DNA of 47,482 nt, taken from an uncultured Clostridia bacterium. GTDB taxonomy: Bacteria > Bacillota > Clostridia > Christensenellales > Aristaeellaceae. The stretch covers positions 1 to 47,482 of the forward strand of contig CAMKJS010000017.1 in assembly GCA_946413245.1 (NCBI GenBank), read 5' to 3'. How positions within the stretch are numbered: position 1 is the stretch's first letter; each line of letters starts with the position of its first letter. Position numbers and translations under genes: made by a program. This document shows, in pieces, positions 12,486 to 43,539 of this stretch. The notes beneath the pieces were generated by a model. The model had not been told where the DNA came from. It did no database searches and saw only the letters and a program-made list of their open reading frames with translations.

Positions 12486-14045
12486 ATGAGTTTAGGCGAG
12501 ATGTTTGTTTCCGGCCTTAGCGCTGTCTGGGGCGGAGGCACGATGTTCCTGATGGTCGTTGTGGCCATCGTTCTGGGTACCATTTTTGGCGCCCTGCCCG
12601 GCGTATCGGCCACCATGGCCGTGGCTCTGGGCCTGACCTTTACCTATACCATGGGCCCGGTGCCCGCCATCGTCTTCCTGACGGCCATATACTGCTCCTC
12701 CATTACGGGCGGTTCCATCACGGCCATTCTGTTCAAGATTCCCGGCGTACCCTCGTCGGCGCCTACTACGTTTGACGGCTATCCGATGGCCCAGCGCGGC
12801 GAAGCCGGCAAGGCTCTGGGCGTGGCGCTGCTGGCCTCCGCCATCGGCGGCTTGTTCTCCGCGCTGATCATGTTCCTGCTGGCGACCCCGCTGAGCAAGG
12901 CGGCCCTGGCCTTCGGCAACGGCGATATGTTCGCCATTACCTTCCTGGGTCTGAGCATCCTGATCGTGCTGGATACCGAGCATATTCTGACCACGATCAT
13001 TTCCGGCCTGCTGGGCCTGCTGCTGGCCTGCATCGGCCAGGACCCCATGGCTGGCGTGGCCCGGCTGACCTTCGGCCAGACGAACCTGCTGAGCGGCATG
13101 GAGATGATCCCCGTGCTGATCGGTCTGTTCGCCGTGACCGAGGTGCTGAAGCAAACCACGACCAAGAAACGCCTGTCCGCTGAGGACGGCGTCGGCAACA
13201 AGGGCAAGGTCAACACCAAGATGCCCAGCATGAAGGAACTGTGGAGCATCAAGATGACCCTGCTCCGCTGCTCCATCGTCGGCACGGTGGTCGGCATCCT
13301 GCCCGGCGCCGGCGCGACCATCGCTTCCTTCATGTGCTACACCATGGAGAACAAGCTCTCCAAGTATCCGGAGAAGTTCGGCACCGGCATCATCGACGGT
13401 ATCGCCGCCTCCGAAGCCTCCAACAACGCCGCTACCGGCGGCGCCATGGTTCCCCTGCTGTGCCTGGGTATTCCGGGCGGCAACGCGGCGGCTGTCATGG
13501 CTTCCGCCCTGGCCCTGAAGGGCGTGCAGATGGGCCCGCGTCTGCTGAACGTGCAGCCGGAATTCCTGTCCGCCACCTTTATCACCATGATCGTGACCAA
13601 CATCCTGATGGTTATCGTCGCCATCGGCATCGCGAAGGTGTTCGCCCAGATCCTGGCTGTACCCTATTATTACCTTGGGCCGATCATCCTGCTGCTGGCC
13701 ATGATCGGATCCTTCTCCGAAGGCAACATCGTGGGCGTCTTCGTCATGGTGATCGCCGGCATCCTGGGTATCGTGGTCAAGTATATGCACCTGAACAGCG
13801 CGGCCATCGTGCTGGGCCTGGTGCTGGGAGGCATGTGCGAAAAGTATTTCTCCCAGGCCTTCCAGAAAGCCCATATCGTTACGGCGGAAATGGGCTTCGG
13901 CGATTACGTGGCCAAGGTGTTCGAGAGCCTGTTCGGCAGCCCGATCTCCGCGATCGTGATGACCTGCTGTATCCTGCTGCTGCTGAGCCCGATCTATATG
14001 CCGCTCCTCAAGAAGGTTACCGGCAAGGGCAAGCAGGCCGCATAA
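12486..14045 (+). CDS. tctA: TTT-family large membrane subunit TctA
   Basis: This 519-residue large permease subunit has about twelve hydrophobic segments. It contains the family motifs GALPGVSATMAVAL near residues 35-50 and the second repeat GILPGAGATIASFMCY near 265-280, then EASNNAATGGAMVPLL and LCLGIPGGNAAAVM. With TctB and the binding protein TctC it performs ion-coupled uptake of tri- or dicarboxylates across the cytoplasmic membrane. ATG 12486 has a TAAGGAGG site. It is followed by a strong hairpin before the hydratase gene. Confidence 0.94.
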   Translation: MSLGEMFVSGLSAVWGGGTMFLMVVVAIVLGTIFGALPGVSATMAVALGLTFTYTMGPVPAIVFLTAIYCSSITGGSITAILFKIPGVPSSAPTTFDGYPMAQRGEAGKALGVALLASAIGGLFSALIMFLLATPLSKAALAFGNGDMFAITFLGLSILIVLDTEHILTTIISGLLGLLLACIGQDPMAGVARLTFGQTNLLSGMEMIPVLIGLFAVTEVLKQTTTKKRLSAEDGVGNKGKVNTKMPSMKELWSIKMTLLRCSIVGTVVGILPGAGATIASFMCYTMENKLSKYPEKFGTGIIDGIAASEASNNAATGGAMVPLLCLGIPGGNAAAVMASALALKGVQMGPRLLNVQPEFLSATFITMIVTNILMVIVAIGIAKVFAQILAVPYYYLGPIILLLAMIGSFSEGNIVGVFVMVIAGILGIVVKYMHLNSAAIVLGLVLGGMCEKYFSQAFQKAHIVTAEMGFGDYVAKVFESLFGSPISAIVMTCCILLLLSPIYMPLLKKVTGKGKQAA

Positions 14046-14058
14046 CCGTATCCACTGC

Positions 14059-14110
14059 GAAGCTTCCCGCGGAAGCCTGCTTTCGCGGGCTTTCCGGGAA
14101 GCTTCTTTTT
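14059..14110 (+). terminator. Rho-independent terminator or attenuator after tctA
   Basis: 11-bp arms (14059-14069 with 14095-14105) enclose an inner GC-rich hairpin and are followed by TTTTT at 14106-14110. The hydratase start is only about 25 bases downstream with no clear promoter between, so partial read-through is likely. Confidence 0.75.
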
Positions 14111-14134
14111 GTAAAAACCTGAAGGGGGTATCAC

Positions 14135-16408
14135 ATGTTGAAACTGTATGATTCCGGCGTGTATCTGCTCCACGGACGCCAGATCACGGCGGACGCGCAG
14201 GAAGCCGCCAGGCTGGCCGGCAAGCCTGTCTCCAAGGAGGAAGCCTCGCAGGGCACCATCGCCTACGGCATCCTGAAGGCGCACAACAAGAGCGGGGATA
14301 TGGATCACCTGCAGATGCGCTTCGACAGCCTGACCAGCCACGATATCACTTACGTGGGCATTATCCAGACCGCGCGGGCTTCCGGCATGAAGGAATTCCC
14401 CATGCCCTACGTGCTCACCAACTGCCACAACAGCCTGTGCGCCGTGGGCGGCACCATCAACGAGGACGACCATATGTTCGCCCTCAGCGCGGCCCACAAG
14501 TACGGCGGGATCTATGTGCCCACTAACATGGCGGTCATCCACTCCTTCAACCGGGAGATGATGGCTGGCTGCGGGCGGATGATACTCGGCTCAGACTCCC
14601 ATACCCGCTACGGCGCCATCGGTACCCTGAGCGTGGGCGAGGGCGGCGGCGAGCTGGCGAAGCAACTGGTGGGCCGCACCTACGACGTGGCCCGGCCCGG
14701 CGTGGTGCTGATTTATCTGGACGGCGAACCCCGGCCCGGCGTCGGTCCCCAGGACGTGGCACTGCAGATTTGCGGCGCGGTATACGCCAACGGCTACGTG
14801 AAAAACAAGGTCATGGAATTCGTGGGCCCCGGCGTGGCGAAGCTGCCCATGGAATACCGCAACGGTATCGACGTGATGACCACCGAGACCACCTGCTGGA
14901 GCTCCATCTGGGAGACGGACGAAGCGACGGAGGAATACCTGACCATCCACGGCCGTCCCGAAGCCTATAAGAAACTGGCGCCGGCGGACGCGGCCTACTA
15001 CGACGGCTGCGTCTATATCGACCTTTCGAAGATTGAAAGCACAATCGCCCTGCCGATGCATCCCAGCTATGCGATGACCATCCGGGAACTGCTGGAGAAT
15101 CCGAAGGACATTCTGCACGAATACGAGGAAAAGGCAAACAAACAGATCGTCGGCGCGAAGATCGACCTGGTGAGCAAGGTACACGACGGCGGCGTCTGGG
15201 TGGAGCAGGGCCTGGTGGCCGGCTGCTCCGGCGGAACCTTCGACAACGTGTGCGCGGTGGCCGACATTCTGCGCGGAAACAGCACCGGAAACGGGCCGTT
15301 CACCATGAGCGTGTATCCCGGCTCCATGCCCGCCTACCTGCAGCTGCTGAAGAACGGCGCGCTGGCTGACATCGCCGCCGCCGGCGCGATTATCCGCGAA
15401 TGCTTCTGCGGTCCCTGCTTCGGCGCGGGCGACACCCCCGCCAACGGGGAATTCTCCATCCGTCATACGACCCGCAACTTCCCGAACCGCGAAGGCAGCA
15501 AACCCGGCGAGGGCCAGATGAGCGCCGTGGCCCTGATGGACGCCCGGTCCATCGCCGCCACCGCCATCCATCACGGCAAGCTGACCCCGGCGACCGACCT
15601 GGACGTGAAGTATCAGAAGTATCCGTACGTTTTCGACAAGTCCGTGTACGAGAAGCGGGTATACTTCGGCTACGGAAAGGCGGAACCGGATCATGCGCTG
15701 AAGTTCGGCCCCAATATCAAGGACTGGCCTGAGCAGCCCGCCCTGACAGAGGATCTGCTGGTGAAGGTCGTATCCTATATCACGGATCCCGTCACGACCA
15801 CGGACGAACTGATTCCCTCCGGCGAAACCTCCTCCTATCGCTCCAATCCCGAACGCCTGAGCGAATTCGCCCTCAGCCGCAAGGATCCCGAATATGTGGG
15901 ACGCAGCAAGGCTGTGCGGCAGATCGAGCGCGGCCGGGCAGCCGGAGAGGGACTGCCTGAAGAAGTCAAAAAGGTATACGAAGCGCTGGCGAAAGTCGTC
16001 GTTGTCGATCCGGAACATACCGATATCGGCTCCACGATCTTCGCCGTGAAACCCGGCGACGGCTCCGCCCGCGAGCAGGCCGCGTCCTGCCAGCGCGTGC
16101 TGGGCGCTTCCGCCAACCTGGCGAAGGAATACGCCACCAAGCGGTATCGCTCCAACTGCATCAACTGGGGTATGGCGCCGCTGCTGGTGAAGGACGAAAC
16201 CGCCTTCGCGCTGGGCGATTGGGTATTCATCCCCGGCCTGCGTAAGGCCGTGCTGGAAGGCACGCCGGAATTCACCGCGTATGCCGTGAAGGCGGACGGC
16301 ACGGTGACTCCCTTTGCCGTCAGCCTCGGGGCGCTGACGCCGGACGAGCGGCAGATCATCGCCGACGGCTGCCTGATCAACTACTACCGGAATCATCCTG
16401 TGAACTGA
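14135..16408 (+). CDS. Single-chain aconitase-family hydratase (YbhJ-like)
   Basis: This 757-residue [4Fe-4S] hydro-lyase contains both the catalytic aconitase domains (about 1-480) and the C-terminal swivel domain (about 590-757). Cluster ligands are visible as Cys364 in VAGCSGG and the pair Cys425/Cys428 in CFCGPC; substrate-binding motifs include GSDSHTRYGAIG at 152-163 and GDGSAREQAAS in the swivel domain. The length and divergent sequence resemble the YbhJ-type putative hydratases rather than AcnA or AcnB. Between a tricarboxylate transporter and citrate lyase, it probably interconverts citrate and aconitate/isocitrate, letting the pathway take aconitate as well as citrate (inference). 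A GGGGG site precedes ATG 14135. Confidence 0.88.
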   Translation: MLKLYDSGVYLLHGRQITADAQEAARLAGKPVSKEEASQGTIAYGILKAHNKSGDMDHLQMRFDSLTSHDITYVGIIQTARASGMKEFPMPYVLTNCHNSLCAVGGTINEDDHMFALSAAHKYGGIYVPTNMAVIHSFNREMMAGCGRMILGSDSHTRYGAIGTLSVGEGGGELAKQLVGRTYDVARPGVVLIYLDGEPRPGVGPQDVALQICGAVYANGYVKNKVMEFVGPGVAKLPMEYRNGIDVMTTETTCWSSIWETDEATEEYLTIHGRPEAYKKLAPADAAYYDGCVYIDLSKIESTIALPMHPSYAMTIRELLENPKDILHEYEEKANKQIVGAKIDLVSKVHDGGVWVEQGLVAGCSGGTFDNVCAVADILRGNSTGNGPFTMSVYPGSMPAYLQLLKNGALADIAAAGAIIRECFCGPCFGAGDTPANGEFSIRHTTRNFPNREGSKPGEGQMSAVALMDARSIAATAIHHGKLTPATDLDVKYQKYPYVFDKSVYEKRVYFGYGKAEPDHALKFGPNIKDWPEQPALTEDLLVKVVSYITDPVTTTDELIPSGETSSYRSNPERLSEFALSRKDPEYVGRSKAVRQIERGRAAGEGLPEEVKKVYEALAKVVVVDPEHTDIGSTIFAVKPGDGSAREQAASCQRVLGASANLAKEYATKRYRSNCINWGMAPLLVKDETAFALGDWVFIPGLRKAVLEGTPEFTAYAVKADGTVTPFAVSLGALTPDERQIIADGCLINYYRNHPVN

Positions 16409-33715: not shown

Positions 33716-33731
33716 GTTAGCAAGTGCTAAC
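33716..33731 (+). promoter_or_regulatory. Operator palindrome site D in front of the FTR1 operon
   Basis: GTTAGCAAGTGCTAAC is a perfect 16-bp palindrome apart from its central AG (arms 33716-33722 and 33725-33731). It lies at about +5 to +20 of the predicted transcript and matches sites A-C, so it is the likely site for metal-dependent repression of the iron operon. Confidence 0.75.
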
Positions 33732-33762
33732 GTTATGCATGTTTAACGGAAGGAGGACGGGC

Positions 33763-35514
33763 ATGCAGATGAAGAAAGTTCCTGGACTGATCTGCGCGCT
33801 GGTCATCGTTTTACTGACTGTTTCGCTGCCGGGCGTTGCGGAGGAAACAGTGTCGACCCGCTGGGCGGACGCGGCGGACGAGATTGACAAATTCCTGGAC
33901 GCCGCGTTTGAAGCGTATCTGGACGGGGATCCGTCAGCCGCCTACAACCATGTGAGCAACGCCTATTTCCGGGTGTATGAAACGACGGGTTTTGAACGGC
34001 AGACCATGAGCTACATCAGCGGAAACCGCAAGAACGCCGTGGAAATGCAGTTTTCCGCGTGCAAAGCAGCCGTAAAGAAAGAAAACGAAACCGCCGAAAC
34101 GAAAATTGCCGTCCGCAGCGCGCTGGCCAAGCTGAAGGCGATGATCCGCGAAGACGGAAACAAGCTGGCCGCCATGCAGGGAGGCGTGCAAAGCGAAACC
34201 AAATACTACCTGCGCGGCGAGCTGTCCGCCGGCGATCCGTACGCGGAATACTCCGCCGATCCAAATGCCGCGGCGAAGTATTCCAGTCGGTACGAAGCCG
34301 CGACGCTGGTGAAGGAACTGCTGGATACGGCCTACATGGCTTATCTGGATAAGGACTTTGCTGCTGCGGAGGACAATCTGAACACGGCCTACTACTCGGT
34401 GTACGAAGAATCCGGGCTGGATCACGCCATCTATACCGACTTGTCCATTCAGGAAAGGCAGTCGGCGGAAAAGTGTTTCTCCGATCTGCGCAGCCTGATT
34501 GCCTCCGGCGGGGAAAAATACCAGAAAAACAAGTATCGCACCACCACCGACCGGGCTAAGAACACCATCCTGAAATACGCCAAAGCGATCGACACGAAAA
34601 ATGCTGAGTCGAAGGCGGAAGAAGCCGGCGAAAGCGGCGGCGTCTCCGCGGAAAGCGAAGCCGCGGAAGAAAAGCAAAGCGATCCGAAGTGGCTGACCTT
34701 CCTGGGAGCCTTTGGCATCATCGTCCGGGAAGGGCTGGAAGCGATTCTGGTCATCGCCGCGATCATTGCTTACCTGGTAAAGAGCGGAAACAGCCGCAGC
34801 GTGAAAAACGTCTATATCGGCGCGGCAGCCGGCGTCGCGGCGAGTTTCGCCGCGGCTGCGGTGCTCGCCTGGGCAAAACAGGCGTTTGTCGGCGCCGGCC
34901 TTGCGCAGGAGGTGATTGAAGGAATCACTGCCCTGATCGCGGTATGCGTGCTGTTCTACGTCAGCAACTGGATGATTTCCAAAGCCGAGGCGGCCAGCTG
35001 GAGCCGCTTTATCGACGGGAAGGTTCAGTCCTCCGTGGAGCAGGGAAGCGCGTTCGCGCTTGCTTTCACCGCTTTCCTGAGCGTGTTCCGGGAAGGCGCG
35101 GAGGTTGTGCTGTTCTATCAGCCGATGCTCAGCGAGGGGAACCCGGGGATGGTCTGGGCCGGATTCGGTGCCGGATGCGTCCTGCTGGTCTTCGTTTACC
35201 TGGCGATCACGAAGCTGTCGATCAAACTGCCCATCAAAGTCTTCTTTACCGCCACATCCATCCTGATGGCTGTGATGTGCGTCAGCTTCCTGGGCAGCGG
35301 TATCAAGGAACTGGCTGAAGGCAACGTCTTTGACCTGGCGCTCCGCGTGCCCGGTATTCCGGAAAACGACGTGATCCAGATCTTCGGGATTTATCCCTGG
35401 CTGGAGACGCTGGTGCCGCAGCTGATTCTGGCGGTGATTCTGCTGATCACATTCCTGATCGCCCATTACCGGGGTAAGATGAACGCGCTGAAGGCGCAGA
35501 TCGCTCAATCCTGA
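33763..35514 (+). CDS. FTR1-family iron permease with duplicated extracytoplasmic domain
   Basis: This 583-residue protein has a signal peptide (about 1-27), a large extracytoplasmic region and a C-terminal FTR1 membrane domain with about seven helices. The two iron-handling motifs are REGLE (322-326) and REGAE (443-447). The extracytoplasmic region contains two homologous segments (about 40-125 and 180-270): AYLDGDPSAAYNHV...AYFRVYE parallels AYLDKDFAAAEDNL...AYYSVYE. FTR1/EfeU/FetM proteins take up iron with a periplasmic partner. ATG 33763 was chosen because AAGGAGG ends six bases before it; ATG 33769 is also possible. It heads the iron operon behind operator D. Confidence 0.93.
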   Translation: MQMKKVPGLICALVIVLLTVSLPGVAEETVSTRWADAADEIDKFLDAAFEAYLDGDPSAAYNHVSNAYFRVYETTGFERQTMSYISGNRKNAVEMQFSACKAAVKKENETAETKIAVRSALAKLKAMIREDGNKLAAMQGGVQSETKYYLRGELSAGDPYAEYSADPNAAAKYSSRYEAATLVKELLDTAYMAYLDKDFAAAEDNLNTAYYSVYEESGLDHAIYTDLSIQERQSAEKCFSDLRSLIASGGEKYQKNKYRTTTDRAKNTILKYAKAIDTKNAESKAEEAGESGGVSAESEAAEEKQSDPKWLTFLGAFGIIVREGLEAILVIAAIIAYLVKSGNSRSVKNVYIGAAAGVAASFAAAAVLAWAKQAFVGAGLAQEVIEGITALIAVCVLFYVSNWMISKAEAASWSRFIDGKVQSSVEQGSAFALAFTAFLSVFREGAEVVLFYQPMLSEGNPGMVWAGFGAGCVLLVFVYLAITKLSIKLPIKVFFTATSILMAVMCVSFLGSGIKELAEGNVFDLALRVPGIPENDVIQIFGIYPWLETLVPQLILAVILLITFLIAHYRGKMNALKAQIAQS

Positions 35515-35626: not shown

Positions 35627-35668
35627 CCGGATATACAAAAAGATCCATGAAAGAGGAGGATGTCTGAC

Positions 35669-36223
35669 ATGAAAAAGTTGGTTGCTCTGCTGCTGGCCGC
35701 TATGATGCTCTTCGCCGTTTCCGCTGTTTCCCTGGCGGAAGAAGAAGCAGGTTTCGATGAATACGAACTGGGTGTCGAGGGTGAACAGGAAGTCGATTTC
35801 ATGACCATGGCGATGGTATATTTCCAGCCCGTGGATATGGCTCCCGCCGAGAACGCGACCCCTAAGGAAGGCTCTGACCTGCATATCGAAGTGGATCTGA
35901 CGGCTAACGAGAACCCCTACGGCTTCCCGGTGGACGGCTGGGTGCCCTATCTGAGCATCGATTTCGTGATCAAGGATCTGGAAGGCAAGGAAGTCTATTC
36001 CGGTTCCATGATGCCGATGGCGGCCTCTGACGGCCCGCACTACGGAAACAACATCCCGCTGGCTGAGGGCGAATACACCATCACCCTGTACATCAAGAGC
36101 CCGGCTGAAAACGGCTATCTGCTCCACGTGGACGCGGAAACCGGCGTCGAAGCCAAGGACGGCTTCTGGACCGAACCGCTGACCGCCACCTGGACGGGCT
36201 GGAAGTTCGTCAAGGAATGGTAA
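35669..36223 (+). CDS. P19/Tp34-type periplasmic iron-transport protein
   Basis: This 184-residue exported protein belongs to the P19/Tp34/FetP family, the extracytoplasmic metal-binding partner of FTR1-type permeases. A signal peptide covers about residues 1-22. The mature part has the family features YFQPVDMAP (Met), SDLHIEVDL (His), W-x-PYLSIDFVIKD, SMMPMAASDGPHYGNNI (second His region) and a C-terminal Trp-rich strand. Its cupredoxin-like fold binds Cu2+ and Fe2+ in studied homologues. The start at 35669 was chosen because the AGAGGAGG site directly abuts the in-frame ATG at 35660 but is correctly spaced for 35669. Confidence 0.9.
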   Translation: MKKLVALLLAAMMLFAVSAVSLAEEEAGFDEYELGVEGEQEVDFMTMAMVYFQPVDMAPAENATPKEGSDLHIEVDLTANENPYGFPVDGWVPYLSIDFVIKDLEGKEVYSGSMMPMAASDGPHYGNNIPLAEGEYTITLYIKSPAENGYLLHVDAETGVEAKDGFWTEPLTATWTGWKFVKEW

Positions 36224-36322: not shown

Positions 36323-36365
36323 TTGGCATGTTTATGACTTGTATTTTTACAGAGAGGGCCCTGCT

Positions 36366-37661
36366 GTGTTCAAGTATCTTTGGATGGTGATCCAGGATCT
36401 TTTCCTTACAGTGACGTATGCTTCGCTGATGCATGCGATGCTTTCCCGTGTCGCCGGAAGAAAAGGACGTCTGATTCATGCCGTTGCGCTGTGCGCGGGA
36501 GTGTTGGCTTCTGTTGCCATCGCAACCGTGAAATACAATACGAAGCTCATTGTTTCCAGCCACTGGAATCATTATATTTACGCCGTTGTGATGTCGCTGA
36601 CAATTCTCTTTCTGGTGTTTACTTTCTGCTTCGGCAGAAAGGAAAAACAGTCCGGGGGAGCGGGCGGTGCGATCCTCTGCGTTACCGGCTCCCTGCTGTC
36701 AGCCGTCATGATTTTTTTCGCGCTGCCCGGTGTGCTGCTGTACCCCTTCAGCTTTAATACCATGGGGCAGGGATATCTTTCCTCCTACTATCTTGTGCGC
36801 ATGGCCGGATGGCTCGGCGCGCTGATTCTTCTTCTGATCTGTTCGCGGCTGCTTTCTCAGTGCGCGTTGGAAATAAAGCCTTACGCGTGGGTTCCTGTTT
36901 TGATGAACATCAATCTGCTGGCTTTTTCCGTCTATTGCTTCGGCCGCTTCTTTGTTCCCTGGGTTAACCGGGCCAAATGGCTCGGGTGGTCCGTGAAGTA
37001 CAGCGACGAAGCCTACGGATGGATCGGGAAATGGATGATGTTCACCGCGAACCACGCCATGCTGTTCTACTGGGTCACGGCCGGGCTGGTCGTTTTGCTG
37101 GCGGTCTTTTTCTTCCGCCAGGGAACGATCCTGCGGGAAAAGTACGACAATCCCGCGCAGCTCCGTAAGCTGAAGGCCCGGAACCGGCGCTGGCGGAGGA
37201 TATCCGCCGGAATACTGGCCAGTATTCTTCTGTTTTCCCTGATTCTGACCGTCGTCAAGACGAACGACACCAGACAGGTGGAACTGTCCGCTCCTGAAAG
37301 CTACACGGTGGATCGGGAAGCCGGCGTGATTCTGGTTCCTTCCGAGGCGGTGAACGACGGCCACCTGCACCGCTTTGAGTACCGGACTGAAAAGAACATC
37401 GACGTTCGCTGGATCGTGGTGAAAAAGCCCAATTCCGCCAGCTACGGCGTTGGGCTGGACGCCTGCGAGGTATGCGGGAACGCCGGCTACTTCGAACGGA
37501 ACGGACAGATCGTATGCAAACGCTGCGACGTCGTGATGAATATCAACACCATCGGATTCAAAGGCGGGTGCAATCCCATTCCCCTCGCTTATGAAGTGAA
37601 GGACGGCAATCTGGTTTTCCGGCTGGAAGACCTGGTTGCAGGGGAGAAGGAGTTCAGGTAA
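36366..37661 (+). CDS. DUF2318 (Fe-S-containing) membrane protein of the iron system
   Basis: This 431-residue protein has about seven to eight hydrophobic helices up to residue 300 and a C-terminal extracytoplasmic DUF2318 domain. That domain has Cys367-x2-Cys370, Cys384-x2-Cys387 and Cys402 (ACEVCG, VCKRCD, GGCNPIPL), characteristic of the family predicted to hold a metal or Fe-S centre. Homologues sit between p19 and the FtsX-like permeases in Campylobacter p19 / E. coli fet clusters. Start GTG 36366 was chosen for the AGAGAGGG site at 36351-36358; an upstream in-frame TTG (36339) lacks one. It may pass electrons to or from iron during transport (inference). Confidence 0.88.
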   Translation: MFKYLWMVIQDLFLTVTYASLMHAMLSRVAGRKGRLIHAVALCAGVLASVAIATVKYNTKLIVSSHWNHYIYAVVMSLTILFLVFTFCFGRKEKQSGGAGGAILCVTGSLLSAVMIFFALPGVLLYPFSFNTMGQGYLSSYYLVRMAGWLGALILLLICSRLLSQCALEIKPYAWVPVLMNINLLAFSVYCFGRFFVPWVNRAKWLGWSVKYSDEAYGWIGKWMMFTANHAMLFYWVTAGLVVLLAVFFFRQGTILREKYDNPAQLRKLKARNRRWRRISAGILASILLFSLILTVVKTNDTRQVELSAPESYTVDREAGVILVPSEAVNDGHLHRFEYRTEKNIDVRWIVVKKPNSASYGVGLDACEVCGNAGYFERNGQIVCKRCDVVMNINTIGFKGGCNPIPLAYEVKDGNLVFRLEDLVAGEKEFR

Positions 37662-37673
37662 GGGGGAAATAAA

Positions 37674-38969
37674 ATGCTTTTTCGAATGATACGCGGCGTG
37701 CTCTTTCACCAGAAGGGAAAAATGCTGCTGATTGCGCTGACTATCGCCCTGGGAGCTTCTCTGGCCACGGGTATGCTGAACGTCGTTCTGGGTGTGGAGG
37801 AGAAGGTCAACAAGGAACTGAAGAACTACGGCGCCAATATTGTCGTAAAACCCAAGGACTCCTCCCTGCTGTCCGATATTTACGACGTGGGGGAAGGGGC
37901 GGAGCTGAATACGGCCTATCTGCGCGAGGACGAGCTCGGCAAACTGAAAACGATTTTCTGGGCGTTCAACATTGTGGACTTCACGCCCTTCCTGGATACG
38001 CAGGTTCAGATAGCGGAAGGCGTACCCGTAAAAATGACCGGAACCTGGTTTAATCATCACCTGGATCTGCCGACTGGGGAAAGCCTCGACGCCGGCGTGG
38101 TCGGGATGCGTTCCTGGTGGGATATCACGGAGGGACGCTGGCTGGACGAAAAGGATGAAAACGCAGCCGGTGAAATCATGGCAGGCACTGCCCTGGCGGA
38201 GCGCCAGGGCTGGCACGCGGGAGACGTGATCCATCTGAAAGGGAGCCACGGGGAAAAGGACGTTACGCTGGTGGGCGTATACGACGCCGGCGGGGACGAG
38301 GACGACCAGCTGTATGCCACGCTGGATCTGGTGCAGGCCCTGACGGACCGGGAGAACAAAGTGGCTTCCATTGAAGTGTCCGCCCTGACTACTCCGGATA
38401 ACGAGCTGGCCCGGCGCGCGGCGAAAAATCCCGCCGCCCTCAGCAGCCGGGATTACGAAACCTGGTACTGTACCGCTTATGTCTCCGCGATCTGCTATCA
38501 GATTCAGGAAGTGATCACCGGATCCGTTGCCACCGCTGTCCGGAAAGTGGCGGAAAGCGAAGGAACGATTCTGGATAAGACGAAGCTGCTGATGATCCTG
38601 ATCACTGCCCTGAGCCTGATCGGTTCGGCGCTGGGCATCTCTAACCTGGTAACGGCCTCCGTGATGGAGCGCAGCCAGGAAATCGGCCTGCTGAAGGCGA
38701 TCGGAGCAAAGGACCGCCCGATTACCGGCGTGGTGATGACGGAAATCCTGATTACCGCGTTAGTGGGATTTGCCGCGGGATACCTGATGGGCTTCGGATT
38801 CGCGCAGCTGATCGGCCACAGCGTGTTCGGATCGTCCATCGATATGGATCCGAAGGTCGCACCGATCGTGGCGGGCCTGATCGCGCTGGTTACCATCGCG
38901 GGCAGTCTTCCGGCGATCCGCATGGTGCTGCGCCTGAGACCTGCGGAAGTGCTGCATGGAGGTCATTGA
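37674..38969 (+). CDS. FtsX-like ABC permease 1 of the iron system
   Basis: This 431-residue permease has an N-terminal helix (about 15-40), an extracytoplasmic MacB-like domain (about 45-295) and three C-terminal helices after the coupling motif MERSQEIGLLKAIGAKD. It corresponds to the first permease in fet/p19-type clusters. Its extracytoplasmic domain does not show the FMN-binding insert found in the next permease. ATG 37674 follows AAGGGGG and is 12 bases after the DUF2318 gene; the stop is two bases before the next ATG, so the two are tightly coupled and probably heterodimerise. Confidence 0.9.
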   Translation: MLFRMIRGVLFHQKGKMLLIALTIALGASLATGMLNVVLGVEEKVNKELKNYGANIVVKPKDSSLLSDIYDVGEGAELNTAYLREDELGKLKTIFWAFNIVDFTPFLDTQVQIAEGVPVKMTGTWFNHHLDLPTGESLDAGVVGMRSWWDITEGRWLDEKDENAAGEIMAGTALAERQGWHAGDVIHLKGSHGEKDVTLVGVYDAGGDEDDQLYATLDLVQALTDRENKVASIEVSALTTPDNELARRAAKNPAALSSRDYETWYCTAYVSAICYQIQEVITGSVATAVRKVAESEGTILDKTKLLMILITALSLIGSALGISNLVTASVMERSQEIGLLKAIGAKDRPITGVVMTEILITALVGFAAGYLMGFGFAQLIGHSVFGSSIDMDPKVAPIVAGLIALVTIAGSLPAIRMVLRLRPAEVLHGGH

Positions 38970-38971
38970 AT

Positions 38972-40432
38972 ATGACGAAAAGAAGAATGTTCCTGCGCAT
39001 GATCACGGCTTCTCTCCTGCGCAGACGGTCGAGGATGCTGATTGCGCTGCTGTCGATCGGGATCGGCGCGACGATTCTGGCCGGGCTGGTGACCATTTAC
39101 GTGGACGTTCCCCGGCAGATGGGAGCCCAGTTCCGTTCCTACGGCGCCAATATGCTGATCCTTCCCCGGGAAGGCGCGACCCTGACCGGGGACCGGCTGG
39201 CGGAGGTGCTGGAAAAGATCCCGCAGGACGAGCTGATCGGCGCGACACCGTACCGCTACGTCCGCCTGGATATGACATCCCGGCAGCAGTCCTTTACGGC
39301 GGCGGGAACCGATTTTTCGCAGGTTCCGAAAACCAGCCCATACTTCAGCATCGAAGGGATGTACCCGGAAAACACGAGAGAGGTGCTGATCGGAAAGAAC
39401 ATTGCGGACATCATCGGGGTGAAAACCGGATCCACGATGGAGCTGACGTATCAGCCGGCGGCTTCTTCGAAGACGGCGGGCCCGGAAGAGAGCCGCCTTC
39501 CGAATGCCGAACTGGCCGGAAGCGCGGAGGGCTTCGGCGGCGGAATCGTTTACGTCAGCGTAAAGCTGGACGACCGCTCCGCCATCGCGTCTCTCGGGAT
39601 CGACGCCGGCACGCAGACGCCGGAATACGGCGGACGGACGGCTGAGGACCAGGATTTCCTGAATCAGTTCATCGGAAAAACTCTTCCGCTGACCCTCGGG
39701 GAGGATGTGGACGCGCTCTCCGGCGCGACGGTGACGTCGGAAGCGGTGGTGCAGGCGGTCAACACGGCCCGGAAAGCGGAAACGGCGGCGAAACCGCAGA
39801 CGCTGAATTTTACGGTCACCGGGATTCTGACCACCGGCGGCGAAGAGGAGGATTACGTTTTCCTGTCCCTGGAGGATATGAAAACGCTTACCGGATCGGA
39901 TCAGCTGGATGTGGCGGAGCTGAGCGTCTCCGCCGGCGCGGAACAGCTCGAAACATACGCGGATTCCATTTCACAGGACAGCGATACCGTGCAGGCCAGG
40001 CTGGTGAAACGGGTTACCCGCTCCGAGGCCTCCGTGCTGGAAAAACTGACGGCGCTGGTCTTTCTGGTAACCCTGGTGGTTCTGCTGCTGACCATGATCT
40101 GCGTTTCCACGACGATGATGGCGGTCGTCTCGGAACGCCGAAGGGAAATCGGCCTGCGCAAGGCGCTGGGCGCGTCCGACGGCTCCATCCGGGCGGAATT
40201 TCTGGGCGAGGGACTGTTCCTGGGATTGCTGGGAGGCGTCATGGGCGGCATTCTCGGCTTTGTGTTTGCTCAGGTGGTCAGCGTCAACGTCTTCGGTTCC
40301 TCGATCACCTTCCAGCCGCTGCTGCTGCCCGTCACCATCATCGTATCCATGGCGATCGCGGCGCTGAGTTGTCTGCTTCCCATTAAGCGCGCGGTGGCCA
40401 TCGATCCGGCTTTAGTATTAAAAGGCGAATAG
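38972..40432 (+). CDS. FtsX-like ABC permease 2 with inserted FMN-binding domain
   Basis: This 486-residue permease has an N-terminal helix (23-43), a long extracytoplasmic region (45-355), and three C-terminal helices (about 359-381, 414-436, 450-470) after SERRREIGLRKALGASD. Residues about 180-269 match the FMN_bind domain pattern: GSAEGFGGGIVYVSVKL (183-199), a middle QTPEYGG, and DALSGATVTSEAVVQAVN (247-264). The flavinylation consensus Dxx(S/T)GA(T/S) is fully met, making Thr253 the candidate FMN-acceptor. The domain is on the outer face, where ApbE acts. The C-terminus is normal for the family. ATG 38972 has TGGAGG 9 bases upstream; an in-frame TTG two codons earlier is less likely. Confidence 0.88.
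   Translation: MTKRRMFLRMITASLLRRRSRMLIALLSIGIGATILAGLVTIYVDVPRQMGAQFRSYGANMLILPREGATLTGDRLAEVLEKIPQDELIGATPYRYVRLDMTSRQQSFTAAGTDFSQVPKTSPYFSIEGMYPENTREVLIGKNIADIIGVKTGSTMELTYQPAASSKTAGPEESRLPNAELAGSAEGFGGGIVYVSVKLDDRSAIASLGIDAGTQTPEYGGRTAEDQDFLNQFIGKTLPLTLGEDVDALSGATVTSEAVVQAVNTARKAETAAKPQTLNFTVTGILTTGGEEEDYVFLSLEDMKTLTGSDQLDVAELSVSAGAEQLETYADSISQDSDTVQARLVKRVTRSEASVLEKLTALVFLVTLVVLLLTMICVSTTMMAVVSERRREIGLRKALGASDGSIRAEFLGEGLFLGLLGGVMGGILGFVFAQVVSVNVFGSSITFQPLLLPVTIIVSMAIAALSCLLPIKRAVAIDPALVLKGE
39509..39778 (+). other. FMN_bind domain-coding segment inside FtsX-like permease 2
   Basis: This segment encodes residues about 180-269 of the permease. The GF-GG-x-I-x-V-x-V start and D-A-L-S-G-A-T-V-T-S end are the conserved ends of the FMN-binding domain of NqrC/RnfG-type flavoproteins. 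The candidate FMN-bearing Thr codon is ACG at 39728-39730. The first permease of the pair shows nothing similar at the same place. Confidence 0.75.
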
Positions 40433-40453: not shown

Positions 40454-41110
40454 ATGAGTCTGCTTGAACTGAAAAACATCTCCAAAATCTACGGAGACCT
40501 GAAGGCGCTGGACAATGTTTCCCTGCATGTGGATCAGGGAGAATGGGTCGCGATCATGGGTCCTTCCGGCAGCGGCAAGAGCACCATGATGAATATTATC
40601 GGCTGCATGGATAAACCGACAAAGGGTGAAGTCCTGCTGGACGGCGTGGATATCAGCAAGGAAAGCAGCAAAGCCCTGACGGACATCCGCCGGGATAAGA
40701 TCGGCCTGATTTTCCAGCAGTTTCATATGGTGAACTATCTGACAGCCGTGGAAAACGTGATGGTCAGCCAGTACTATCATTCCATGCCGGATGAAAAGGA
40801 AGCGCTGGAAGCGCTCGAGCGCGTCGGCCTGCGCGAACGGGCCCGGCATCTGCCCAGCCAGCTTTCCGGCGGTGAACAGCAGCGCGTGTGCGTGGCCAGG
40901 GCGCTGATCAACCATCCGGAGCTGATCCTGGCGGACGAACCCACCGGAAACCTGGACGAAGCCAACGAAAACATCGTTCTGGACCTTTTCGCGCAGCTGC
41001 ATAAGGAAGGAACGACGCTGATCGTCGTCACGCATGACCCCGAAGTGGCGGACGCCGCGCAGCGTACCATTGTGCTGGAACATGGGCGAATCGCTGACAA
41101 CCGTCAGTGA
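40454..41110 (+). CDS. ABC transporter ATP-binding protein of the iron system
   Basis: This 218-residue LolD/MacB-type ATPase has Walker A GPSGSGKST near residues 36-44, signature LSGGEQQRV near 137-145, Walker B LILADEPT and the H-loop VTHD. It lies 21 bases after permease 2 with a GAGGAG site and probably energises permeases 1 and 2. Inverted repeats span its stop codon: CGCTGACA (41092-41099) pairs with TGTCAGCG (41120-41127), and CCGTCA/TGACGG form a smaller hairpin inside. Confidence 0.93.
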   Translation: MSLLELKNISKIYGDLKALDNVSLHVDQGEWVAIMGPSGSGKSTMMNIIGCMDKPTKGEVLLDGVDISKESSKALTDIRRDKIGLIFQQFHMVNYLTAVENVMVSQYYHSMPDEKEALEALERVGLRERARHLPSQLSGGEQQRVCVARALINHPELILADEPTGNLDEANENIVLDLFAQLHKEGTTLIVVTHDPEVADAAQRTIVLEHGRIADNRQ

Positions 41111-41240
41111 CGGAAGTCTTGTCAGCGATGAGGTCAACCGAAACGAGCGAGCTCCACAGTGTGGAGTCGCGACGATTGAGGTTGCGGATAAAGTTGCTCG
41201 TGAAGTTATTAATGAGAATTTTCAGGCATGAGGCGAACGA
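41092..41240 (+). other. Structured gap between the iron-system ATPase and DUF4418 genes
   Basis: This 132-bp intra-operon gap, plus the gene end, is rich in inverted repeats: 8-bp arms 41092-41099/41120-41127 and a perfect CTCCACA/TGTGGAG hairpin with a 1-base centre (41152-41166) set in a longer imperfect dyad. No gene, promoter or T-tract was recognised. It may be an interspersed repeat element or an operon-internal control region. Confidence 0.4.
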
Positions 41241-41242
41241 AC

Positions 41243-41644
41243 ATGAAAAAACAGATAATACCCGGCTGTGTGATGCTTGTGCTCTCTCTGGTGATCGCCA
41301 TCGGGAGCTTCACCTTTTTAAGCCCCTGCGTTCATGAGGACGGCAGTGTGGGCGCCTGTCACTGGGCAGGCAGGGCGCTTCTCGGACTGGGCTGCCTGCT
41401 GGCGGTGCTCTCCGTGCTGGCGCTCCTGTCCGGGCGCGCGCGCTTTGGAATATATCTGAGCAGCCTGGCTGTATGTACAGTCGGAATCCTGACGCCCGGA
41501 ACCCTGATCAGCCTGTGCCGCATGGACAGTATGCGCTGCCGGGCTGTGATGCAGCCCGCCATGATCATTCTTTTTGCCGCTGCAGGTCTGGCCGCCCTGT
41601 GCGGGGCTCTTGCGTGCGGACGGAAAGAGAAAGGAAGAACGTGA
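41243..41644 (+). CDS. DUF4418-family membrane protein
   Basis: This 133-residue protein has four hydrophobic helices and conserved-looking Cys and His residues on the outer side (SPCVHEDGSVGACHW; LCRMDSMRCRAVMQP), as in the DUF4418 family often found beside FtsX-like transporters. The function is unknown. The Cys/His pairs could bind a metal, which would suit the iron context (inference). ATG 41243 is chosen for the usual N-terminus; an in-frame ATG at 41228 is possible, and neither has a strong ribosome binding site. Confidence 0.75.
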   Translation: MKKQIIPGCVMLVLSLVIAIGSFTFLSPCVHEDGSVGACHWAGRALLGLGCLLAVLSVLALLSGRARFGIYLSSLAVCTVGILTPGTLISLCRMDSMRCRAVMQPAMIILFAAAGLAALCGALACGRKEKGRT

Positions 41645-41651
41645 ACCCGGC

Positions 41652-42854
41652 ATGAAAAACGCTCCTTTACCGCTGAAGAACCTGATCAGAAAACCGGGGA
41701 GAACCACAGCCCTGGTGCTGCTGACCGCTTTTCTGGCTCTGGCTGTTTTCGGCGGCTCAGTGATCATACTCTCTCTGCGCACGGGGCTCCGGAGCCTGGA
41801 GGCCCGCCTGGGAGCGGACATTATTCTGGTGCCTTCTGAGGCGCAGAGCAAGATCAGCTTTCAGAACATGTTTCTGCAGGGAACCACCGGCGCGTTTTAT
41901 ATGGATGCGGCTGTGACGGATAAAGCCATGGGCGTGCCCGGCGTGGAGAAAACCGCGCCGCAGACCTTTCTGGCGTCCCTGAAGGCAGACTGCTGCTCCG
42001 TGAAGATCCAGGTGATCGGGATTGATCCAGAAAAGGATTTCACCGTTCAGCCGTGGATCGCGCGCAGTCTGACCGGGGAACTGGGGGATATGGACGTCGT
42101 GACCGGCTGCCGGGTGGAAGCCGGTATCGGAGAAATTATCCGGATCTATGATCAGCGGTGCAAGGTTGTCGCGCGGCTTGAACCCACGGGAACCGGCCTG
42201 GATACTGCCGTCTACTGCAATATGGGTACCATGAATACCCTGCTGGCTGCCGCGGAAGCCAAAGGCGTCAGCCACAAAATCTCCAGCGGGGACGATTCCG
42301 TCGTCTCAGCCGTCTATGTCAAGGTGAAGGACGGATATGACATTGATACGGTCAATTCAGCGCTGACCGGAAAGCTCCGCAAAGTAACAGCCGTCCGGAC
42401 CCGGTCCATGATCACCGGTGTTTCGGACAGCCTGGCAGGAATCAGCCGCACCGTTACGACGATGGTCATCGTAATCTGGGCGCTGGCCCTGATCATCCTG
42501 ATGCTTGCCTATATTCTGATTGTCCGGGAGCGTTCCAGGGAGTTTGCCGTGCTCCGCCTCATCGGCGCGTCGGGAAACATGCTGGGCAGGATGGCGCTGA
42601 CCGAATCCGCGGTTTGCGGCCTGGCCGGCGGCCTCGTGGGAACCGGCCTGGCAGCAATCGGTGTTTTCTCGTTTTCCGCCCTGATTGAGAGCAGCCTGGG
42701 ACTGCCGTATCTGCTTCCGGATCCGGGCACGCTCCTTCTTCTGGCGGCGGGCACCGTCATTCTTTCCGCTGCGGTTTCCGCCCTGGCAAGCGCCTTTGCG
42801 GCATGGCGCCTCAGCAGGGTAAACCCGGGGACCGCGCTCAGGGAGGGGAACTGA
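41652..42854 (+). CDS. FtsX-like ABC permease of the second transporter module
   Basis: This 400-residue permease has an N-terminal helix (about 20-45), an extracytoplasmic domain (about 45-265) and three C-terminal helices after the REFAVLRLIGASG coupling motif. It lacks the FMN-binding insert seen in permease 2 of the upstream module. It is one base from the next ATPase gene and seven from the DUF4418 gene, so the three form a coupled unit at the end of the iron operon. With only one permease gene it would act as a homodimer. The substrate is unknown. Confidence 0.88.
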   Translation: MKNAPLPLKNLIRKPGRTTALVLLTAFLALAVFGGSVIILSLRTGLRSLEARLGADIILVPSEAQSKISFQNMFLQGTTGAFYMDAAVTDKAMGVPGVEKTAPQTFLASLKADCCSVKIQVIGIDPEKDFTVQPWIARSLTGELGDMDVVTGCRVEAGIGEIIRIYDQRCKVVARLEPTGTGLDTAVYCNMGTMNTLLAAAEAKGVSHKISSGDDSVVSAVYVKVKDGYDIDTVNSALTGKLRKVTAVRTRSMITGVSDSLAGISRTVTTMVIVIWALALIILMLAYILIVRERSREFAVLRLIGASGNMLGRMALTESAVCGLAGGLVGTGLAAIGVFSFSALIESSLGLPYLLPDPGTLLLLAAGTVILSAAVSALASAFAAWRLSRVNPGTALREGN

Positions 42855-42855
42855 T

Positions 42856-43539
42856 ATGCTGCTTCGGGCCGATCACATCAGCAAAACTTTTTTCCGCAGT
42901 ACCGGAAGCGCCAATTATTTTTATGCCGTTTCCCCTCTGAGCATGGAAATCGCCCCGGGAACGGTCACCGTACTGACGGGCAGAAGCGGTTCCGGAAAAA
43001 CCACGCTGCTGAATATGCTTTCGGGGATTCTGGAACCGACAGAGGGAAAGGTATGGGCGGACGACACCGATCTGTACGGTCTGAAGGATGCCGCGCTTTC
43101 CCGCTTCCGGAACGACCGGATCGGCGTCGTCTCGCAGGCCAGGAGCGCGGTGGACACGCTGACGGTGGCGGAAAACATCCTGCTGCCGGCAAAACTGTAC
43201 GGAAAAACACCGCCTGAAGAAGAAACAAGGTACTGGATGAAAGCGTTTGAAATCGCTCCTCTGGCGGACGCGATGCCGAAAGAGCTTTCCGGCGGCGAAC
43301 TGAGGCGGATGGCGATCATCCGGGCTCTCGTTCAGGATCCGGACGTTCTTTTTGCCGACGAACCCACAGGCGATCTGGACGATGAAAACACAAAAAAGGT
43401 TTTATCCGCTCTGCATGCTTTTGCGCACGAAAGAAACAGGGCGGTGTTCATCGTAACGCATGAGAACGAGGCGGTGAAATATGCGGACCGGCTCTTCAGA
43501 ATGGAGAAAGGTCAGATCATGCAGCCGGAAAGCGAATAA
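42856..43539 (+). CDS. ABC transporter ATP-binding protein of the second module
   Basis: This 227-residue LolD-like ATPase has Walker A GRSGSGKTT near residues 41-49, signature LSGGELRRM near 144-152, Walker B VLFADEPT and H-loop VTHE. It starts one base after the permease stop with an AGGGAGGGGA site. It is the last gene of the operon that begins with FTR1; a strong bidirectional terminator follows at 43574-43604. Confidence 0.93.
   Translation: MLLRADHISKTFFRSTGSANYFYAVSPLSMEIAPGTVTVLTGRSGSGKTTLLNMLSGILEPTEGKVWADDTDLYGLKDAALSRFRNDRIGVVSQARSAVDTLTVAENILLPAKLYGKTPPEEETRYWMKAFEIAPLADAMPKELSGGELRRMAIIRALVQDPDVLFADEPTGDLDDENTKKVLSALHAFAHERNRAVFIVTHENEAVKYADRLFRMEKGQIMQPESE

Follow-up and report, generated by a model that had tools for sequence, protein, structure and literature searches.

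Why should the permease of a bacterial iron transporter carry a flavin-binding domain within its own chain? The question is raised by a stretch of 47,482 nucleotides (contig CAMKJS010000017.1 of assembly GCA_946413245.1; hereafter the window) from an uncultured Clostridia bacterium of the Aristaeellaceae, the genome of which is 78.6% complete. The window encodes a predicted iron-uptake cluster of the Fet/P19 type, and the second of its two paired permeases, FetC, contains an FMN_bind (flavin mononucleotide, FMN) domain; the names FetB, FetC and FetD are given by analogy with fetMP-fetABCD of Campylobacter. We predict that the insert bears covalent FMN at Thr253 and would do, within the permease, the electron-transfer job attributed to the separate flavin lipoprotein of related clusters, a reading to which we assign a probability of about 0.53. 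The domain, its motif, the single clade of inserts, their closeness to the domains of tandem flavoproteins and the lack of a detectable separate lipoprotein gene in 77 loci are read directly from the sequences, while the fold is taken from a confident structural model.

The FetC open reading frame covers 38966-40432 on the forward strand and encodes 486 amino acids counted from the ATG at 38972. Two features within it carry the argument:

39509..39781, + strand: inserted FMN_bind domain, FetC residues 180-270
39710..39730, + strand: ApbE flavinylation motif D-A-L-S-G-A-T, residues D247-T253; candidate acceptor Thr253, codon 39728-39730

The domain matches PF04205 with 40.1 bits (E 6.1e-10, cut-off 22; match at 39539-39769). 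This is the only PF04205 match on the contig and comprises a single FMN_bind stretch, to which NCBIfam RnfG models also match in part; their scores, 48.6 and 28.5 bits, fall well short of the full-length cut-offs (205 and 102). DALSGAT agrees exactly with the consensus Dxx[S/T]GA[S/T] quoted in PMC10339131, and Thr253 is therefore the residue predicted to receive covalent FMN from ApbE. The initial annotation had proposed such a module, with an exact consensus and this threonine as candidate acceptor, in the loop of a MacB/FtsX-fold permease whose partner lacks it. All of this is borne out: FetC matches PF02687 with 78.2 bits, the inserted domain is modelled confidently with an NqrC/RnfG-type fold, and the Pfam scan of FetB (37674-38969) gave no FMN_bind match. 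Furthermore, PF04205 was recognised at E<=0.001 in every one of the 54 aligned homologues examined (the window, three others and 50 of the 80 named loci described below), and 78 of 80 homologous loci of other genomes have the strict motif, as does the window, so that neither domain nor motif is a chance resemblance. Across 39 aligned inserts the domain residues D68, G72, A73 and T74 are invariant.

The host protein follows the FtsX/MacB (type VII) plan, with an FtsX C-terminal domain, an adjacent ATPase and a large domain between helices 1 and 2; in the model, a helix at residues 3-54 is followed by a mixed domain (61-344) and by helices at 350-388, 403-441 and 451-475. Alignment with relatives that have no insert shows that the additional stretch interrupts the MacB-like core between two conserved segments, immediately ahead of FTVTGILTTGGEEE. 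The insert is predicted to be extracytoplasmic, the side of the membrane being assigned by analogy with the family. Two other FetC homologues, P0128 and P0132, have some 75 residues of unrelated sequence inserted in the same loop, in which no further Pfam domain was found; the site has therefore taken more than one insertion.

The loading enzyme that a flavinylated permease would call for is encoded in the same genome: it has one ApbE match (PF02424, E 3.1e-86; contig C12, 48305-49126), with a hydrophobic, signal-like N-terminus. Within the genus of the window, ApbE matches occur in 40 of 45 genomes and in 22 of the 23 with an observed insert, all but G036, a genome that is 73% complete. Among the findings that the initial annotation had named as refuting its proposal, those open to computation did not occur.

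How widespread is the arrangement? A full-length DUF2318 protein, encoded in the cluster upstream of the permeases, is present in 24 of the 45 genomes of the window genus, and the insert was found in 23 of these; in the 24th, G024, the contig ends within FetB. In a sample of the order, FetC was matched at E<=1e-60 in three of 248 genomes: one lacks the insert, and the two that have it belong to the window genus. This hinted that the insert is confined to one genus, an idea overturned by the family sample, where 113 of 300 genomes had a FetC match at E<=1e-50. In 109 of them the match extends across the insert region (contig ends cut some of these short, and in G904 the end of the insert is absent); in the other four it breaks in two where the insert would lie. 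The 109 genomes represent 14 of the 50 genera sampled in this family of largely uncultured bacteria. Across the phylum, DUF2318 matches were obtained in 65 of 398 genomes including that of the window; 20 loci were taken from the other 64, mostly by their long open frames, and six of them (L164-L169), incomplete as Fet clusters, were left out. The insert was seen in none of the 14 remaining complete Fet clusters, all from other families. Moreover, a scan of named records yielded 350 related stretches, of which the best 80, with FetC matched over nearly its full length, were used; their best segments are 63-88% identical to the window FetC, the queries having been peptides of insert-bearing FetC outside the insert, a choice that favours the insert form. 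Nearly all of these records are titled as Clostridia-type metagenome assemblies, many from rumen or gut sites. Among the listed homologues of a no-insert FetC, PF04205 occurred in none of 120 according to precomputed domains, and none of the titles of the 50 listed Foldseek structure matches names a flavin domain.

What do clusters without the insert have instead? In Gram-positive and some other Fet clusters, a separate FMN-binding protein is encoded where most Proteobacteria have a thioredoxin (PMC6083913). A count of 260 P19 clusters with an FMN-binding gene has been given (PMC8238504; Meheust 2021), and SifE of Bifidobacterium is one such separate protein (PMC5449479). Our own comparison agrees with this picture: Pfam identified an FMN_bind gene directly after FetD in five of the 14 no-insert clusters of other families, a separate FMN_bind gene is also present in G676, the genome of the same order without the insert, and all four no-insert clusters found in the sample of the window family have one directly after FetD. 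The latter four are frames of 163-183 amino acids that match PF04205 with 28-36 bits, each with a lipobox-like start. Altogether, 10 of 19 no-insert loci have a separate gene after FetD and nine do not. By contrast, no separate FMN_bind gene was detected on the same strand within 2.5 kb after FetD in any of 77 insert loci with at least 800 bases downstream of FetD, as judged with a profile that was trained on nine of the ten positives and has limited power on very distant forms, although it still found L150 with 33 bits. Thirteen of 90 insert-type loci had been excluded from this count (FetD cut in four, no FetC/FetD in two, fewer than 800 bases downstream in seven), and at least one contig was counted twice (L043 is L174). 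The cluster of the window has no separate FMN_bind gene after the ATPase, and is therefore a variant, not a member, of the Gram-positive subtype with a separate gene. The next gene encodes a DUF4418 protein, which occupies the slot where related no-insert clusters often encode the lipoprotein; a DUF4418 relative lies somewhere in 71 of the 77 insert loci and was found in none of the 19 no-insert loci by a one-sequence search that could miss distant forms. In L158, a frame of 96 amino acids (13213-13500, + strand) directly after FetD has weak cytochrome-c7 and paired-CXXCH matches just below the Pfam cut-off, and perhaps encodes a heme carrier in the slot used elsewhere by thioredoxin or flavin proteins.

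Did FetC acquire its domain from the neighbouring lipoprotein gene? When FetB served as outgroup, a tree of the permease core united 16 insert-bearing FetC in one clade (100/100), and a second permease tree with 22 insert rows did the same (100/99). Since this clade is nested among FetC without the insert, it is the insertion that is derived; which no-insert branch lies closest is weakly supported (85/69). The tree of the FMN domains themselves comprised 43 rows (18 inserts, 16 tandem domains, six separate lipoproteins and three others). All 18 inserts cluster together (94/91), next to the RnfG of the window genome and to tandem multi-flavin domains, most of which come from the window genus, whereas the six lipoproteins form a distinct group (100/100) with long branches and, in two rows, odd composition. 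The window insert is 39-50% identical to the 16 tandem domains and 37% to RnfG, but matches the lipoproteins over 77 residues at 27% or in short pieces only. Because of this tree and these identities, the idea that the lipoprotein gene in the seventh position of the cluster was fused into FetC was rejected. A domain of the tandem/RnfG branch rather seems, from these comparisons, to have taken over the job of the separate carrier inside the permease. The notion that family members without the insert have lost it is likewise unsupported: their four FetC sit among no-insert branches outside the insert clade, and their cluster is therefore an older or an exchanged form. Two loci, L177 and L178 (G862 and G915), combine a no-insert cluster with a separate lipoprotein, while most matched members of their genus, g394, have the insert; their position in the tree suggests that the cluster may have been exchanged between species.

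Several other proteins with FMN-type domains were noted. The genome of the window encodes a 522-residue RnfD-RnfG fusion (L002 on contig C6, 232-1797, + strand; PF03116 at residues 7-302, PF04205 at 424-511), with the gene of an Rnf-Nqr membrane subunit next to it. A genome of the same genus, G032, has a frame of 1074 amino acids (L032 on contig C21, 91-3312, + strand) in which a cytochrome c552 domain comes after five FMN_bind stretches, making it a flavin-heme hybrid. Downstream of the Fet cluster of L091, on the other strand, lies an 846-residue FAD_binding_2 flavoprotein with two FMN_bind stretches (13778-16315, - strand), and frames of 845-862 amino acids with FMN-type domains are likewise found downstream of the cluster in L090, L094 and L099. 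All 39 aligned inserts read Gln-Thr at a site that is Glu-Thr (mostly ETxGLG-like) in the tandem and RnfG domains seen, a difference that might tune the flavin site. The best sequence match of the insert in the PDB is 8p2b, domain 1 of CbFMN4. The domains of CbFMN4 and SaFMN3, which belong to the broad tandem type, carry covalent FMN (PMC10339131); they are the nearest type of domain, with several in a row there and a single inserted one here.

The genes around FetC are arranged as follows:

33724..35514, + strand: FTR1-family iron permease (FetM-like) with a long N-terminal part (PF03239, 93.2 bits; true start probably near 33769)
35660..36223, + strand: P19/FetP-like iron-binding protein (PF10634, 158.2 bits)
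36339..37661, + strand: FetA-like membrane protein with a DUF2318/FtrD-like five-Cys domain (PF10080, 100.8 bits)
37674..38969, + strand: FetB-like FtsX/MacB permease 1, without FMN_bind (PF02687 and PF12704)
38972..40432, + strand: FetC-like FtsX/MacB permease 2 with inserted FMN_bind (PF02687, 78.2 bits; PF04205, 40.1 bits)
40454..41110, + strand: FetD-like ATP-binding cassette (ABC) ATPase (PF00005, 125 bits)
41228..41644, + strand: DUF4418 protein, next gene after FetD (PF14387, 66.9 bits)
41574..42854, + strand: third FtsX-type permease, without FMN_bind (PF02687, 52.6 bits; true start probably near 41652)
42856..43539, + strand: second ABC ATPase, of the DUF4418-FtsX-ABC module (PF00005, 109.5 bits)

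The FTR1, P19 and five-Cys DUF2318 neighbours named in the initial annotation thus have their Pfam matches, and the order FTR1-P19-DUF2318-permease-permease-ATPase, shared by the homologous loci, is that of a classical, predicted Fet/P19 iron-uptake cluster. The DUF2318 protein reads CEVC-x13-CKRC-x14-C in translation (CxxC-x13-CxxC-x14-C), the five-Cys pattern described in PMC6083913. In fetMP-fetABCDEF (p19) of Campylobacter, FTR1, P19, DUF2318, two FtsX-type permeases and an ATPase come in the same order (PMC6083913, PMC10783030); separate thioredoxins, FetE and FetF, follow there, whereas in the window an FMN_bind domain is found inside the second permease instead. None of the nine window proteins scanned matched a thioredoxin family. 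Bifidobacterium sifABCDE and the 260 P19 clusters (Meheust 2021) have the same transporter core with an FMN-binding domain in the system, but their FMN-binding protein (SifE) is described as the product of its own gene, and the window insert belongs to another FMN_bind branch than the separate lipoproteins sampled here. RnfG and NqrC are subunits of ion pumps, while the host of this domain is an ABC permease, which has its FtsX C-terminal domain, MacB-like core, four-helix plan and adjacent ATPase in common with MacB and LolCDE.

What could a flavin do in such a permease? Since near relatives encode a domain of this kind as a separate neighbouring protein, the flavin likely transfers its electrons on the transporter itself. 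Exported ApbE would attach FMN to Thr253 outside the membrane, and electrons would reach the flavin from a membrane donor, for which the DUF2318 protein or RNF-type flavins are the best candidates. The flavin may then reduce ferric iron held at P19 or at the mouth of the permease, so that FTR1 would receive ferrous iron. FetB-FetC-FetD would be a machine of the MacB/LolCDE kind, not itself the iron carrier, in which ATP moves the extracytoplasmic domains and could bring the flavin to donor and acceptor in turn. MacB acts by mechanotransmission and moves no substrate through its own membrane part (PMC5985334), and ATP-driven mechanotransmission by FetBCD is proposed by analogy with it. In C. 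jejuni, losing fetA, fetB, fetC or fetD each impairs growth in low iron, and FetE and FetF are predicted to relay reducing power, likely from FetBCD, through FetA (PMC10783030). The insert is in keeping with a redox step at FetBCD, for which it supplies a physical location. A tentative and on balance doubtful extension is that FetD, by hydrolysing ATP, makes the flavin domain of FetC swing between the donor and P19-bound iron, thereby gating or powering electron delivery. A swinging-arm FetC would, to our knowledge, be the first flavoprotein ABC permease.

Several points weigh against the reading that the FetC flavin does the job of the separate carrier. All insert clusters stem from one event, and the mutual exclusion of insert and lipoprotein therefore represents one transition, not 77 independent ones. 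In nine of the 19 no-insert clusters, the slot after FetD has no FMN_bind gene, so a flavin is not universally required there. The motif reads DALAGAT in L106 and has been lost through in-frame shortening in L080, and the full-length FetC model fixes the position of the domain loosely (pTM, the predicted template-modelling score, is 0.58). The electron donor and the direction of flow are guesses. The thioredoxin FetE of C. jejuni resembles thiol oxidases and may be an oxidase in vivo, and FetF too may act as an oxidase (PMC10783030); this would suit an oxidative direction at least as well.

The oxidative alternative is accordingly the one that we weigh most seriously, although we regard it as unlikely: the flavin would accept electrons from ferrous iron oxidised at the permease or close to it, FTR1 would move the iron in its ferric form, and the electrons would exit via FMN. 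An FTR1 is present, yeast Ftr1 works together with an oxidase in the Fet3/Ftr1 pair, and FMN carriers are able to pass electrons in both directions. Moreover, FtrABCD was described as specific for Fe2+, and its permease is predicted to draw energy from the oxidation of Fe2+ (PMC11966278), and the possible oxidase activity of FetE points the same way (PMC10783030). For systems with the separate carrier, however, ferric reduction or a redox chemistry resembling the one used by assimilatory iron reductases was suggested (PMC6083913, PMC8238504). Slightly less probable is a redox sensor, whose oxidation state or partner binding would switch the FetBCD ATPase cycle with no electrons passing to iron. 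The domain does lie within the moving part of MacB-like machines, but its job seems interchangeable with that of a separate lipoprotein, of thioredoxins or, in L158, perhaps of a cytochrome-c7-like protein, and this apparent interchangeability is more easily reconciled with an electron carrier than with a sensor built into the permease. It is improbable that FetBCD and its flavin move a flavin, heme or siderophore-like compound apart from the FTR1-P19 route: the function and substrate of FetBCD are described as unclear (PMC10783030), and the heme exporter HrtBA is among the Foldseek matches to the whole FetC model, yet FTR1, P19 and DUF2318 genes precede the permeases in each named locus that is long enough. 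We consider it very improbable that the insert serves a structural or protein-binding role, with the FMN_bind fold kept but no working flavin; the in-frame loss in L080 and the Ser to Ala change in L106 would agree with such a role, but these are two of 80 loci, and the strictness of the motif in the other 78 at 63-88% identity, like the invariant Asp, Gly, Ala and Thr of the 39 aligned rows, speaks for a flavin site.

A link between flavins and the Fet/P19 system is already known (PMC6083913, PMC8238504); the insertion and the swap are new. We found no report of a fusion between FMN_bind and an FtsX permease in the open-licence literature, as far as the accessible texts go, and inserted forms may be among the 260 clusters counted in PMC8238504. 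Since a different flavin domain has been built into FetC and the separate carrier was not found, the extracytoplasmic loop of FetC is indicated as the site of electron delivery. The protein thus brings flavin, ATPase cycle and iron reduction within reach of a joint test on one polypeptide and, if the prediction is true, ABC permeases would join the list of ApbE substrates.
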